DNA from: a virus
IMG/VR virus record: IMGVR_UViG_3300010885_027785
Coordinates: 1 to 21,476 of that record
Direction: 5' to 3' (one strand)
DNA: 21,476 nt
The notes under the pieces are model-generated. The model saw only the letters and a program-made list of their open reading frames with translations. It did no database searches and had not been told where the DNA came from. Numbering within the stretch: position 1 is the first letter of the stretch; the number at the start of each line of letters is the position of its first letter. A program made the position numbers and the translations under genes. Shown here in pieces: positions 2 to 9,150 of this stretch.

Positions 2-1717
2 AGCGCAACTACTGGCCAAGCATCTGATGGCATTGATCGTCTCTATGTTTTCTCTTCCTCCACAGATTTTGAGTCAGAGAAGCCATATACCAAATTTGCT
101 GCCTACACATTCTTGGAGCATGGTGGCGACTTCTCTGCAGCTGCGCGTCAGTTAGGTGCTGACGGCTTTGGCTCGCAGCCTGCCCAATCCACCACTGCAA
201 CCCCTGCGCCATCAAAGTCAGTGGCAGCGCACATCTCACTTGATCAGATGCCAGACATCAACAATGTTGCTCCTGACTACATCATCACCACTCTGGCTGA
301 TGAGATCCATGAGCCTGCCGAGCCATACCTTGGAGTGCATGGCGCAGTCTTGTCTCACATTGGTGATCTTGCACTGAGCCCTGCCTCCACAGTTGCTCAA
401 AGTGAAGATGGGCACTCACAGGCGCTCATTGCCAACTATGGCGCTGATGTGCGCTACTGCCATCAGATGGGGCGCTGGCTGCATTGGGATGGATCGCGCT
501 GGGAAGTGCAGCCACATGGTGGCGGCATCGTGCGCGAGTACGCCAAGAACATCGCGCGGCTCTATCCAGATGACAAGGAATGGACTTCACACAAGAAGCG
601 CAGTCTCACCACTCCTGGCATCAATGGCGCGCTGTCGATGTCCACCACAGATTTCCGCATTGAAGTCAGCGTCAATGACCTTGATGCGCGACCGTGGGAG
701 TTGAACACTCCTGCAGGGATTGTGAATCTACGCACTGGCGAACTACATCCAAGCGACCCCACGCATCTGCACACAAAAACCACGGCATTTGCACCAGACT
801 TCACAGCAGATCAAACACCTTGGACACAATTTCTGGGCTCCATCTTCCAAGGTGATGCAGAGATGATTGCCTACATCCAGCGGCTCATGGGATATGCCTG
901 CGTGGGAGAAGTCAGAGAAGCGATCCTCCCAGTCTTCTACGGGCAAGGCGCTAACGGTAAGACAGTGCTGCTCGAGACTGTGCAAGCAGTGCTGGGCGAC
1001 TACGCCACTGTTGCTCCACAGCGCTTCCTTGTGCAAGGTCCAGGGCAGCACGCCACAGAGATCGCAGCAATCGCAGGTGCGCGCTTAGTCATTGCTTCTG
1101 AGACCAATGAAGGCGAGAAGTTTGATGAAGCCAAGGTCAAGATCCTGACAGGTGGCGACAAGATCAAGGCACGCTTCATGCGCCAAGATGAATTCACTTT
1201 TAAGCCCAGCCATCTGCTTGTCATGATGACCAACCATCGTCCAGAAGTAGGCAGCGGCGGCACGAGCTTCTGGCGTCGCTTGCGTGAGATCCCCTTCACA
1301 TATGTAGTGCCTGAAAGTGAGCGAGATCCTGAGCTGACTTCTCGGCTTACCCATCAGCATGGCCAAGCCATCATGGCTTGGCTGGCGCAAGGTGCAGCAG
1401 ATTACGCAGCCAATGGGCTACGCGAGCCAGAGAAGGTCAAAGCAGCCACCAAGGGATATGAAGCCTCCACTGACACTGTTGGCCGCTTTGTGGAAGAGAT
1501 GTGCATCATCGGTGGTGGCGAATATGTGAAATCTCAGACAGCCAAAATGCGCGACACATACGAGTCATGGTGCAGAGCAGAAGGTGAGACTCCTGTCTCT
1601 GCTCGAGCCTTCACCATGCAGATCACATCGCGCTTTGGTATTGGCAAGAGCAGGGATATGCGCGCGCGCTATTACTCCAATGTGTCATTGGTTGGATCTG
1701 GTGAAGATGATGAATGA
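2..1717 (+). CDS. P4-type DNA primase/SF3 helicase, 5' end cut by window
   Basis: Replication protein that would unwind and prime phage DNA. The frame is open from base 2, so the start lies outside the window and 571 codons remain. The first ~45 visible residues (ending HGGDFSAAARQLGADGFG) resemble the end of a primase/polymerase module in this family. A D5_N-like stretch (RWLHWDGSRWE) follows. The SF3 ATPase core comes next: Walker A GQGANGKT at 941-964, Walker B-like ARLVIASE at 1079-1102, sensor-type MMTNH near 1223-1237, and a possible arginine finger in FWRRLREIPF near 1268-1297. P4-family enzymes commonly combine primase, helicase and origin binding (established for P4 alpha). A TGTCAT repeat cluster starts two bases after the stop, which fits an origin used by this protein (inference). 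The helicase call is firm; the type of the missing N-terminal domain is not visible. Confidence 0.93.
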   Translation, partial: SATTGQASDGIDRLYVFSSSTDFESEKPYTKFAAYTFLEHGGDFSAAARQLGADGFGSQPAQSTTATPAPSKSVAAHISLDQMPDINNVAPDYIITTLADEIHEPAEPYLGVHGAVLSHIGDLALSPASTVAQSEDGHSQALIANYGADVRYCHQMGRWLHWDGSRWEVQPHGGGIVREYAKNIARLYPDDKEWTSHKKRSLTTPGINGALSMSTTDFRIEVSVNDLDARPWELNTPAGIVNLRTGELHPSDPTHLHTKTTAFAPDFTADQTPWTQFLGSIFQGDAEMIAYIQRLMGYACVGEVREAILPVFYGQGANGKTVLLETVQAVLGDYATVAPQRFLVQGPGQHATEIAAIAGARLVIASETNEGEKFDEAKVKILTGGDKIKARFMRQDEFTFKPSHLLVMMTNHRPEVGSGGTSFWRRLREIPFTYVVPESERDPELTSRLTHQHGQAIMAWLAQGAADYAANGLREPEKVKAATKGYEASTDTVGRFVEEMCIIGGGEYVKSQTAKMRDTYESWCRAEGETPVSARAFTMQITSRFGIGKSRDMRARYYSNVSLVGSGEDDE

Positions 1718-1718
1718 A

Positions 1719-1917
1719 ATGACACATGACAGATGGAAAATAAATAATTCATACTCCAAAGATCTGTCATATGTGTCATGCCCCTCACAAAAGACCATTT
1801 TAAGTGTCATTGGCGGCCATGACGCATGACACTTATGACACATAGTTTGTTATCCCCATACGCGCGCACACAAGAAATGCAATGTCAAAAGTCTGTCATA
1901 AGTGTCATATGTGTCAT
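1719..1917. repeat. TGTCAT/ATGACA iteron-like cluster, candidate replication origin
   Basis: Ten exact copies of one hexamer lie within 199 bases. TGTCAT starts at 1765, 1774, 1805, 1894, 1903 and 1912; the reverse complement ATGACA starts at 1719, 1726, 1826 and 1835. Near-matches start at 1819 and 1883. Neighbouring copies are phased at 9 bases (1765/1774, 1826/1835, 1894/1903/1912) or 7 bases (1719/1726, 1819/1826). Chance predicts about 0.1 copies in this length. An A/T-rich patch (1736-1760) lies inside the cluster. Position directly after the primase-helicase gene and mixed orientation suggest origin iterons; an operator array for a phage repressor is the main alternative. No protein binding is shown by the sequence. 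Confidence 0.75.
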
Positions 1918-2349
1918 GGATCCAAGCCAGTGACTTCCACACAGATGCAGCCTTGGATGCGACAAATGCTGATTGCCAAAGGTGTGATGGCTGAGTCTGG
2001 GATGACTCGCAAAGCCAAGATCATGCGACATCGTAAATGCGGAATCCTGACACTGGCTGGCTTTGATGCTGACAGCTGCGCACTGGACGCATGGTGCGAT
2101 CTAGCAGAACTATCCGCACAAGGTGAAGCGCTGGCGTTGGTTGGCGGACGGCGGACATATGAAGTCCACGCAGACCGACTCAACTACCGCGACGCCTGGT
2201 CAATCAAAGCCAGACCAGCCGGACACATTGCTGTCTTTGCCAGCCACCGTTGCACTGATCCTGTGCCAGCAACTTGGCGGCTCCCAGCACGACCCACAAG
2301 CCCCTCCACGCAACAGCCCATCAACGATAACGAGGGAGTTCAATTCTGA
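1882..2349 (+). CDS. Conserved actinophage-type protein of unknown function
   Basis: The maximal reading frame is 155 residues. The core, roughly residues 48-125, contains GFDADSCALDAWCDL, then GEALALVGGRRTYEV, then a DAWSIKARPAG segment and a final HRC. I recall this pattern from uncharacterised actinobacteriophage and actinobacterial proteins, but no function is known to me. Cys and His residues spread through the core could bind metal. The start is uncertain: the first ATG (1882) sits inside the TGTCAT repeats, which force an odd CHKCHMCH peptide, and it lacks a clear ribosome binding site. ATG 1987, preceded by AAAGG, would give a 120-residue protein starting MAESGMTRK and leave the repeats noncoding. 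The stop overlaps the next ATG by one base, so the two genes are probably coupled. Confidence 0.7.
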   Translation: MSKVCHKCHMCHGSKPVTSTQMQPWMRQMLIAKGVMAESGMTRKAKIMRHRKCGILTLAGFDADSCALDAWCDLAELSAQGEALALVGGRRTYEVHADRLNYRDAWSIKARPAGHIAVFASHRCTDPVPATWRLPARPTSPSTQQPINDNEGVQF

Positions 2350-3215
2350 TGAGTGACCTAAACACCTGGCAGCCAGTGTGCATCTTGTGCGCGGCTCGCA
2401 ACCCAGCGCGAGACACGGTGCTGGAATCTGGACACTGCTGCAGCAGCTGCGCTCGATGGCTACAGCAAGCCATCCTTGATGTCTCGGTATATGCGCTCTC
2501 AGCTGCAGCATGGATCCCACCTAAGGGCTCAAGCAGAAGCAGTGGAGTGGCAGTCTTTGGCAGCAAGCCACCGCTCAACCTCGATGCAATCGATCCAGAG
2601 TGCGCATTGATGGAGTTGAATACTGGCGATCCATCCAGCGCAGTCACCATCCTTGAGGCACTCGAGATGTGGGAGCGCAGCATCAGGGAAGATCGAGGCT
2701 TTGGCTCTTATGGCCCAGCCAGCGCGATGCGCCTTGGTAGTCAGGTTGGCACGATCACTGCAGCAACACTCAGCGGAGTAGTGGGCTTCCTTGTCTCACA
2801 GATCGAGTGGATCACTACCGAGACTGAGTTTGGCTTGGAAGAGTTTGCTGATCACATTAGGAGAGCGGCAAACATTCTGCGCCGATGGGACGAGAACAGC
2901 ACGCAAGTGGGCACGCGCATCAACTGTCCTGGCTTAGTTGAGGACAAGACATGCAATGCGCCTATCCGCATCAGCACAGAAGGTGAGCCTGTCTTGTGTC
3001 GCAAGTGTGGGCACTCATGGACCATTGACTGGCTCATTGCGGTGGCTGGCGCTGACGCTGATGGCTGGGCAGACATCGAGGCTGTATGCCGGCTCTCTGG
3101 AACCAGTGAGCGCACAGTGCGGCGCTGGGCAAGCAAGGGCATCGTGCGCAAGCGTGGGCTGCTCTACAACGTGCGCGACATTAGTCAGGCAACCACTCGA
3201 GAAGTGAGCGCGTGA
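2349..3215 (+). CDS. Zinc-ribbon and helix-turn-helix DNA-binding protein
   Basis: 288 residues, started by an ATG with GAGGGAG upstream and a one-base overlap with the previous stop. An N-terminal pair of cysteine knuckles is visible (C11xxC14 and C30xxC33). A second set near residues 194-221 includes CPG..., TCN and CRKCGHSW, a zinc-ribbon pattern. The C-terminal ~50 residues (DIEAVCRLSGTSERTVRRWA, then a basic KGIVRKRGLLY) read as a helix-turn-helix with a wing, like MerR/excisionase-type domains. Similar zinc-ribbon plus HTH proteins occur in actinophage replication or early regions. A regulatory or DNA-processing role is likely, but target and partner cannot be read from the sequence. 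The cluster of TGTCAT repeats 430 bases upstream could be a binding site for this protein (speculative). Confidence 0.75.
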   Translation: MSDLNTWQPVCILCAARNPARDTVLESGHCCSSCARWLQQAILDVSVYALSAAAWIPPKGSSRSSGVAVFGSKPPLNLDAIDPECALMELNTGDPSSAVTILEALEMWERSIREDRGFGSYGPASAMRLGSQVGTITAATLSGVVGFLVSQIEWITTETEFGLEEFADHIRRAANILRRWDENSTQVGTRINCPGLVEDKTCNAPIRISTEGEPVLCRKCGHSWTIDWLIAVAGADADGWADIEAVCRLSGTSERTVRRWASKGIVRKRGLLYNVRDISQATTREVSA

Positions 3216-4882: not shown

Positions 4883-5377
4883 ATGCCACCTATCCGCAAG
4901 CCAGCAGCAAAGCGCCAAAATCGAGTCACGCAAGATGTGGGCTTGGTCAGCGCTCCTGGCAAATTGCCTGCGCCTCCTGCCAAATTGTGCAAGGCAGCCA
5001 AGGATGCTTGGAACGCATACTGGACAGACATTGTCAGTGGCTCAGTGCGAGAAGCTGACGCGCCACTTGTGTTGCGCTGGATCCAAAACTTGAACAGATA
5101 CAACGTGCTCATTGCTCAGGCTGACGCAGATCCCATCGTTGCTGGATCGACTGGCCAGAAGCGAGCCAATCCGATTTATGACTTAGTGCTCAAACTAGAA
5201 GCCAGCATCAAAGTTGATGAGCAGCAACTGGGCATTGGTCCACTCAATCGCTTGAAATTAGGCATGGCAATCGGTGAAGCGTCGCGCTCACTTGCAGATC
5301 TCGAGACAGAAGGCAGCGATAATGGCGAGGACGATCCTCGGCTCATCCTCATCGCTGGAGCCATCGAGTCCAACTGA
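4883..5377 (+). CDS. terS: Terminase small subunit, P27 family
   Basis: 164 residues; recognises phage DNA and loads the large subunit. The N-terminus is basic (MPPIRKPAAKRQNR), then a helical region (AKDAWNAYWTDIVSGSV, READAPLVLRWIQNLNRY), then a GSTGQ...NPIYDLVLKLEASI segment and LGIGPLNRLKLG, the conserved core of P27-type small terminases. The acidic end (ETEGSDNGEDDPR) may contact the large subunit. The start is taken as ATG 4883, the first ATG that keeps the basic N-terminus; a TTG at 4856 would add nine unlikely residues and overlap the last T-tract. No strong ribosome binding site is present. Its last 56 bases overlap the large subunit gene. Confidence 0.85.
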   Translation: MPPIRKPAAKRQNRVTQDVGLVSAPGKLPAPPAKLCKAAKDAWNAYWTDIVSGSVREADAPLVLRWIQNLNRYNVLIAQADADPIVAGSTGQKRANPIYDLVLKLEASIKVDEQQLGIGPLNRLKLGMAIGEASRSLADLETEGSDNGEDDPRLILIAGAIESN

Positions 5378-8286: not shown

Positions 8287-9150
8287 ATGGCCACAGTTGA
8301 GCGGCGCGCGTTGCCCATCAATCTTGAATATCGCAACACTGCAGACACCGTCACAGTTGAGGGATATGCCTCAGTTTTCTCTCAGCCATATGACATGGGC
8401 ATGTATCATGAAGAGATCGCACCTGGCGCATTTCGCAAGACACTCTCAGAAGCACCTGATGTGCGCTTCCTGATCAACCATGACGGCTTGCCACTGGCTC
8501 GCACTACCTCGGGCACTCTTGAACTTTCTGAGGACTCCACCGGCTTGCATATGCGCGCTCAGTTGGATCTCTCAGACCCTGATGTTGCTTCTTTGCTGCC
8601 AAAGATGAAGCGTGGCGATCTTGATCAGATGAGTTTTGCTTTCCGCACGATCAAAGATGAATGGTCAAGCGATTACGCAACGCGCACCATGCGTGAGTTG
8701 TCCTTGCGTGATGGAGATGTGAGCATCGTGACTTACCCAGCGTCACCAACAACTTCCATCAGCCTGCGCAATGCTCAGCGCAAGATGGCCGCTGCTCCCC
8801 TGCTGGCTCGCGTCATTGCATCGTTGCAAGAAGAGCGAGCAGGCGCAGCAATCAGCGCATCCAACCTCGATGCACTCCAGAAGATCTTGGATGCCATCGC
8901 AGCTGCTGACGTTGAACTTGATCAAGCACTTGTGGATCTGTCTGGCCTGATGGGCGTAGACAATCCTGACGTTGATGAGATGAATGATTCTGAAACTCCA
9001 GAAGAAGATATGCCAGAAGGTATGGACTCTTGCTTGGAAGAAGAGCCAGAAGAATCAGACATTGACATTGACATTGTGATTGCTATCGCGCGCGCACGCG
9101 CAGTGGCAAGCGCAACTGCTGCCCAGCGCAGCGCCAAATACCTCCGCTAA
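8287..9150 (+). CDS. Prohead maturation protease (S78) with acidic C-terminal extension
   Basis: 287 residues. The protease domain covers residues ~1-165: VEGYASVF, the GAF following IAPGAF, catalytic His65 in FLINHDGLPLART, and catalytic Ser116 in DQMSFAF, followed by RDGDVSIVTYPA. It would cleave the capsid delta domain inside the prohead. The last ~120 residues are an extension: a helical Ala-rich part, then a strongly acidic stretch (about residues 222-265, with EEDMPEGMD and EEEPEESDIDIDID) and a short basic Arg/Ala end. This tail is longer than in the minimal family and may act as an internal scaffold or inhibitor (inference). AGGGAG lies eight bases before the ATG. Confidence 0.92.
   Translation: MATVERRALPINLEYRNTADTVTVEGYASVFSQPYDMGMYHEEIAPGAFRKTLSEAPDVRFLINHDGLPLARTTSGTLELSEDSTGLHMRAQLDLSDPDVASLLPKMKRGDLDQMSFAFRTIKDEWSSDYATRTMRELSLRDGDVSIVTYPASPTTSISLRNAQRKMAAAPLLARVIASLQEERAGAAISASNLDALQKILDAIAAADVELDQALVDLSGLMGVDNPDVDEMNDSETPEEDMPEGMDSCLEEEPEESDIDIDIVIAIARARAVASATAAQRSAKYLR

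Follow-up and report, generated by a model that had tools for sequence, protein, structure and literature searches.

Genes and features of the locus

The window, by which we mean the whole 21,476-nucleotide stretch analyzed here (virus record IMGVR_UViG_3300010885_027785), opens inside a gene for a P4-family primase-helicase and carries terminase and portal genes further downstream (Table 1). The helicase matched the Pfam families D5_N (3.7e-29) and DUF5906 and scored above the cut-off of TIGR01613 primase_Cterm (5.8e-86). A model of the full protein matched the structures of the SaPI5 primase-helicase (Z 29.5) and ASFV PrimPol (Z 31.2). The full-length homologue of Arthrobacter phage PeggyLeg03 (L015) has an N-terminal Prim-Pol, and the window gene is cut before that part; an Arthrobacter phage homologue of the helicase measures 836 aa.

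Ten exact TGTCAT/ATGACA hexamers lie in the 199 bp from 1719 to 1917, starting at 1719, 1726, 1765, 1774, 1805, 1826, 1835, 1894, 1903, and 1912, and an eleventh, at 1683, falls within the last codons of the helicase gene. Four steps are exactly 9 bp (1765-1774, 1826-1835, and 1894-1903-1912), and the only 7-bp step is 1719-1726. No other 199 bp of the window is as dense in this word (10 copies; 500 dinucleotide-preserving shuffles averaged 2.06 and never exceeded 4), and among all hexamers across the whole window ATGACA/TGTCAT formed the best cluster (10 versus at most 6 in 40 shuffles). The copies form blocks that alternate in orientation, one of them lengthened by a degenerate ATGACG, and two near-perfect inverted repeats (15 nt at 100% and 20 nt at 90%) are composed of these units. 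The spacer between the first two blocks has well above the 46% AT of the window. A sequence-only reading of this DNA had already described the ten hexamers, their 9-base phasing, their mixed orientation, and an A/T-rich patch between them, and all four were reproduced here; the alternating tract at 1857-1872 is an addition to that reading.

For the reading frame behind the array, GTG 1930 is the probable start. An ATG start at 1882 is less likely: the homologue in L001 begins MTNTNTLPNWMRE, matching MTSTQMQPWMRQ. Because the GTG start fits this homologue, the block at 1894-1917 would be noncoding. The small protein encoded from 1930 appears to be a flanking gene product that the array does not require, being absent behind the array in mycobacteriophages. 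Two genes behind the array, positions 2349 to 3215 encode a 288-aa protein (phrog_1467) with cysteine pairs and a weak C-terminal MerR-like match. A short element, CCCTCACAAA (or CCTCACGA), lies beside the iterons at 1780-1793 and in the same place in L001 to L003 and L006; it is conserved in close relatives. An Rfam search of positions 1500 to 2400 gave no match, and a terminator search found none. Promoter-like -10/-35 matches at 1719-1755 were barely above the shuffled background (2 versus 0.8).

Table 1. Coordinates of genes and sequence features in the window
Feature	Position	Strand	Basis
P4-family primase-helicase, 571 aa here, 5' part cut by window edge	2..1717	+	profile and structure matches
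RFX-like/Pox_D5 winged-helix domain, residues ~490-567, proposed iteron reader	1469..1702	+	profiles and model
Wing hairpin, residues 548-559 (strands 548-551, 556-559), R551 codon 1652-1654	1643..1678	+	column scan and model
Iteron block 1, ATGACA x2 (1719, 1726; 7-bp spacing)	1719..1731	+	exact hexamer positions
A/T-rich spacer between inverted blocks 1 and 2, candidate melting region	1732..1764	.	73% AT
Iteron block 2, TGTCATATGTGTCAT, 9-bp dimer, orientation opposite to block 1	1765..1779	-	hexamer positions
Lone iteron TGTCAT	1805..1810	-	hexamer position
Iteron block 3, ATGACG 1819 (degenerate), ATGACA 1826 and 1835 (9-bp dimer); left arm of main inverted pair	1819..1840	+	
Alternating purine-pyrimidine tract CATACGCGCGCACACA, 16 nt, Z-DNA-prone, in spacer 1841-1893 between inverted dimers	1857..1872	.	
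Iteron block 4, TGTCAT x3, exact 9-bp steps; right arm of main inverted pair	1894..1917	-	
Small cysteine-containing protein behind array, GTG start	1930..2349	+	phrog_16156 5.9e-07

Arrays behind related helicase genes

We assembled 137 nonredundant helicase loci from viral contigs, bacterial genomes, and phage records. A search for hexamer clusters beside the primase-helicase genes of relatives, suggested earlier for this locus, found arrays there with a word that varies: in 82 of the 137 loci the top hexamer in the 500 bases after the helicase stop codon exceeded all 60 shuffles. The words include CCTGTCATA in L001, TGGCAC in L002 and L004, TGGCGC in L003, AGTGAC in Arthrobacter phages, AGTGCC in Streptomyces elements, GCACAGAT-like words in mycobacteriophages, and also GTGGCAC.

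The spacing was far more constant than the spelling, with exact 6-mer direct pairs peaking sharply at a lag of 9. Lag-9 pairs numbered 496 in 79 of 111 actinobacterial-type loci versus 52 in 31 control coding stretches, and 89 in 19 of 26 loci from other phyla versus 13 in 9 controls. Under a strict rule that required a 5-mer repeated at exactly 9 bp and its reverse complement repeated at 9 bp 45 to 130 bases onward, inverted dimers occurred behind 61 of the 137 genes versus 3 of 3157 300-base bins elsewhere, and 75 further loci, collected as a second set, gave 40 versus 2 of 1623 bins. The same rule at lags of 6 to 8 and 10 to 14 recovered only 0 to 9 loci. The inner-edge gap between the two dimers had a median of 66 bases, with loops of 40 to 105 nt; single loci held up to 18 copies of the word, and many had copies outside the inverted pair. 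The breadth of this layout and of the 9-bp rule is new here.

Eighteen of the 111 actinobacterial-type loci had no clear array. Scanning array-less loci along the stretch retrieved for each revealed an AGCAC dimer at +137 in L095, inside the expected region, a dimer at +444 in L115, just past it, and one about 2.9 kb upstream in L071; the remaining ones had no displaced array along the scanned locus. The strict 9-bp rule also failed behind the gene of Bordetella phage BMP-1.

Mycobacteriophages keep the array though the gene that follows is another one, such as a RusA resolvase. The AGTGAC cluster occurs only once in the genomes of complete Arthrobacter relatives. In Arthrobacter phage RootBeer (L017, 6737-7015), a reversed gene lies between helicase and array and the array persists; the array is therefore separable from the gene. 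Two complete inverted-dimer units stand in tandem behind the helicase genes of L107, L015, and L033, possibly as a duplicated origin core.

A winged-helix domain whose wing covaries with the repeat word

Profiles of 58 homologues placed Pox_D5 (49 of 58) or RFX_DNA_binding (8 of 58) at the C terminus of the helicase, the window protein itself falling just under the Pox_D5 cut-off. Structure models were built on an alignment that left out phage-record rows. The C-terminal domain was modeled as a winged helix (pLDDT 79), with the two strands listed in Table 1 forming the wing, and its best PDB matches were RFX5 (Z 10.2), the DNA-bound hRFX1-DBD (Z 9.8), and 1ka8, the origin-binding domain of P4 (Z 8.2, with 76 residues at 2.5 A). 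The likeness to RFX factors such as hRFX1 with the X-box extends from the fold (Z 9.8 to 10.2) to the mode of reading, since in RFX1 the wing, not the helix, does the reading in the major groove (PMC4333399); unlike the window protein, RFX factors are eukaryotic regulators without a helicase. The residues that covary with the repeat word sit in this same wing.

In a first alignment, the last ~30 helicase residues tracked the word rather than overall kinship. L006, which is only 57% identical to the window protein, has the same TGTCAT word and the same RDM wing, whereas L002 and L003, at 70% and 68% identity, combine TGGCAC/TGGCGC with KGS[KR]G (KGSKG in L002). An unbiased, protein-wide scan of 435 alignment columns, corrected for helicase-core distance, ranked R551 first (partial correlation 0.341; mean 0.009, sd 0.077). 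With nine weak-array loci left out of the association test, R551 accompanied 39 of 42 TGAC-type words versus 5 of 46 other words (Fisher 1.2e-15), and [KQ]Gx[KRH]G accompanied GTGGC in 9 of 10 cases versus 1 of 78 (1.7e-10). Phylogenetically independent pairs on the helicase-core tree divided 11:2 for TGAC with R551 (p=0.022) and 6:0 for GTGGC with [KQ]Gx[KRH]G (p=0.031).

This rule had been read off the training data and was therefore tested unchanged on new loci, which were drawn from the same collection as the training loci. TGAC again went with R551 (12 of 16 versus 5 of 30; p=2.3e-4), and the sole GTGGC locus had KGGKG, the other 45 being without such a wing. Exceptions to TGAC-R551 amounted to 3 of 42 training and 4 of 16 held-out loci, and R551 was also found with GTGCC in four loci of each set. 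Among near-identical mycobacteriophage helicases, small changes in the wing went with changes in the word: A[ST]HG with GGCACA, VSNS with AGTACA, VSNG with AGAACA, and AING or ASNG with AGCACA. In L110, the wing has Q for K and the word GTTGC for GTGGC.

The spelling of the word covaries with a few residues at the predicted DNA-reading tip of the helicase, so that a putative recognition rule can be read from sequence. This wing code is new here. We found no description of it, or of the alternating tract described below, in the literature searched; most subscription journals were outside reach, and absence is unproven.

An alternating purine-pyrimidine tract between the dimers

Alternating purine-pyrimidine runs are the classical Z-DNA-prone type of sequence. 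The tract in the window is unremarkable alone (16 nt was reached by 7% of shuffles, and a second 16-nt run occurs at 9087), and the case for it therefore rests on the family. In most loci, a tract of 12 to 40 bases made of CG, CA, and TA steps lies between the inverted dimers, and its sequence varies. Within 330 bases behind the gene in array-bearing actinobacterial loci, 68% had runs of at least 14 versus 0.8% of other 330-base windows on the same contigs, and 34% had runs of at least 20 versus 0.00% (p=3e-37). The corresponding values were 73% and 62% in other phyla (versus 0.9% and 0%) and 63% and 42% in the held-out loci. The flanks of the tract are A/T-rich, exceeding the locus mean by 0.21 at position -20 and by 0.15 at +20. 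None of 21 mycobacteriophages had the tract. The conserved Z-prone tract between the dimers is new here.

Long tracts, up to 40 nt, were observed at a fixed place between the inverted dimers in L104, L034, L038, L042, L048, and most of L149 to L179. In the spacers of the Arthrobacter phages L015 to L017 (e.g., CCTACGTGTGCGCGCACGTAGG), the tract is palindromic or nearly so and is flanked by more inverted repeats, and a cruciform is therefore possible in these phages.

The array as a probable replication origin

We conclude that the array is probably a phage replication origin, or the helicase-loading part of one, bound by the upstream primase-helicase through its RFX-like winged helix (probability roughly 0.8). 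The conserved position of the array, its 9-bp phasing, its inverted-dimer layout, and the covariation of word and wing were all computed directly. An iteron origin served by a P4-type primase-helicase was what the sequence-only reading had suggested, and that suggestion gains support from the conserved position, from a geometry like that of P4 crr and pRN1, and from the covariation. GC skew, raised earlier as a further line of evidence, was uninformative: in two complete relatives the cumulative curve reaches its minimum at the end of the genome and leaves the array unmarked.

In the mechanism we propose, the primase-helicase would bind the array by docking its C-terminal winged helix on the repeats, and the wing, around R551, would enter the major groove and read the hexamer. 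Neighboring subunits may occupy words 9 bp apart, as covariation and precedent suggest. Opposed dimers on either side of the spacer would then set two rings head to head, so that hexamers load in opposite directions, and the A/T-rich flanks and the alternating tract may help the spacer melt before the origin fires. The same protein would go on to unwind the DNA and prime both forks; such activities have been reported for Cch2 with a partner and for pRN1. Fast joint change of word and wing may keep each initiator private to its own origin.

Comparison with known systems and alternative readings

Satellite phage P4 offers a close comparison. Its alpha protein is likewise a primase-helicase with D5_N, DUF5906, and a Pox_D5 wing domain, and its crr lies directly behind alpha, with type 1 repeats in both orientations as two opposed sets around a spacer (4314 and 4323, 9 bp apart on the + strand; 4366 and 4384, 18 bp apart on the - strand). 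In P4, the primase is a Toprim, unlike the AEP Prim-Pol of homologues of the window protein, and the A/T-rich crr spacer lacks an alternating tract. The word is GTGAAC in P4 and TGTCAT in the window, a difference from P4 that had been remarked on earlier and that is expected because the word changes with the wing.

P4 also has a second site, the annotated ori, about 4.5 kb away. By analogy, the array could be an auxiliary region required in cis like crr, which shares its geometry, with initiation elsewhere in the missing part of a genome of which the window is a 21-kb fragment. We regard this as unlikely: pRN1, the PICI ori, and Cch2 are precedents for a single site directly behind the gene, and the AGTGAC cluster of complete Arthrobacter relatives has no second copy.

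PICI origins have two iteron sets around an A/T-rich region immediately 3' of rep, and an E. coli PICI pri-ori replicates and requires ori (PMC6092414). The window resembles the PICI/SaPI rep-ori in having iteron sets that flank a spacer 3' of the gene and a putative C-terminal reader, a reader of this kind being stated for PICI/SaPI in PMC7581432. The PICI layout was described as shared with "no other known bacterial replicon" (PMC6092414); in contrast, we found it behind most of the actinophage primase-helicases tested here. Adding to the precedents of P4 crr and pRN1, SCCmec Cch2 is a D5_N helicase whose isolated C-terminal domain binds AAGTG iterons in a 23-bp direct-repeat block directly behind its gene (PMC7581432), and its three 5-nt iterons would fit a 9-bp step if evenly spread. 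Unlike the window protein, Cch2 works with a separate primase, and its site is a single block with no inverted partner required for binding.

The archaeal plasmid pRN1 encodes ORF904, an AEP primase with an SF3 helicase and a winged helix, and the 100-bp element behind this gene is essential and restores replication when moved (PMC4234260). Its authors read the element as a stem-loop and described no iterons. We observed that this stem-loop (L445, ~5087-5195) consists of inverted 9-bp iteron dimers (TGTCCATAGTGTCC): the 21-nt stem TTATGTCCATAGTGTCCAACT is TGTCC-N4-TGTCC, and its inverted copy lies 66 nt away, which is the median gap of the loci examined here. In both systems, a long inverted repeat built of 9-bp iterons lies behind an SF3-winged-helix gene, with an AEP primase in ORF904 and in homologues of the window protein.

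Stem-loop or cruciform origins have been proposed for pRN1 and for Bordetella phage BIP-1. In such an origin, the hairpin-forming arms would matter rather than the words as protein sites, and for our loci we consider this improbable. For pRN1 itself, a structural reading is favored, since a stem mutation was rescued by a symmetric change and gel shifts and footprints found no specific binding (PMC4234260); an iteron-only view leaves that symmetric rescue unexplained. In 61 of 101 loci the two 14-bp arms pair without a mismatch, a figure inflated by the choice of the best-matching pair per locus. A stem has no need for arms that are each a 9-bp direct repeat, or for the extra copies beyond the pair, and it does not predict the covariation of word and wing. 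Beyond the arms, complementarity also drops almost to chance (0.32 in the outer flank), and loops as long as those measured here argue against a hairpin.

The sequence-only reading had also allowed for a repressor/operator array, in which a regulator such as the small protein at 1930 or the MerR-like protein at 2349 would control the downstream genes. An array that precedes an operon, the promoter-like matches, and the weak MerR match are compatible with such a role, and an origin can also serve as an operator. Regulation by the protein that follows is unlikely, given that the array persists in mycobacteriophages, where another gene comes next. As RootBeer also keeps it despite the reversed gene, the promoter matches barely exceed shuffles, and the word covaries with the wing of the helicase, we judge an operator array to be very improbable overall. 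A chance or compositional cluster has nothing in its favor except the short word length and can be dismissed, as 500 shuffles never exceeded four copies and the cluster is conserved in relatives while its word changes.

A replication origin bound by the primase-helicase is the likeliest reading. On sequence grounds, the array appears to be an ordinary member of the P4/PICI/pRN1-like family and not a new class of origin. The earlier idea of an undescribed class is not supported, since precedents have been described in P4 crr, the PICI/SaPI ori, SCCmec Cch2, and pRN1. Theta-type iteron plasmid origins (RepA/Pi type) have 17- to 22-bp iterons, DnaA boxes, and a RepA-type initiator; the window has iterons of 9 bp beside the gene of a putative helicase initiator. 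Geminivirus Rep is an unrelated HUH protein with a different fold that acts at a rolling-circle origin. In geminiviruses too, the iteron words vary, and they do so together with a short segment of the initiator, according to work cited in PMC12548392.

Implications for primase-helicase replicons

More speculatively, a single 9-bp inverted-dimer grammar, read by an RFX-like wing with a decipherable code, might serve AEP/D5 replicons across phages and archaeal plasmids. In most of them, the conserved tract might act by shape and not by sequence, passing from B to Z form under negative supercoiling and absorbing or releasing torsion as two rings open the A/T-rich flanks. We offer this combined proposal tentatively, as possible rather than probable.

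To our knowledge, most phages with primase-helicases still lack a mapped origin, among them hundreds of sequenced actinophages. The layout described here would give each such phage a predicted origin together with a testable recognition code. With it, an origin architecture that had been called unique to PICIs reaches beyond them, and the pRN1 stem-loop can be read as an inverted pair of iterons. In the conserved alternating tract, a possible role for Z-DNA at an origin takes a concrete form that can be tested.
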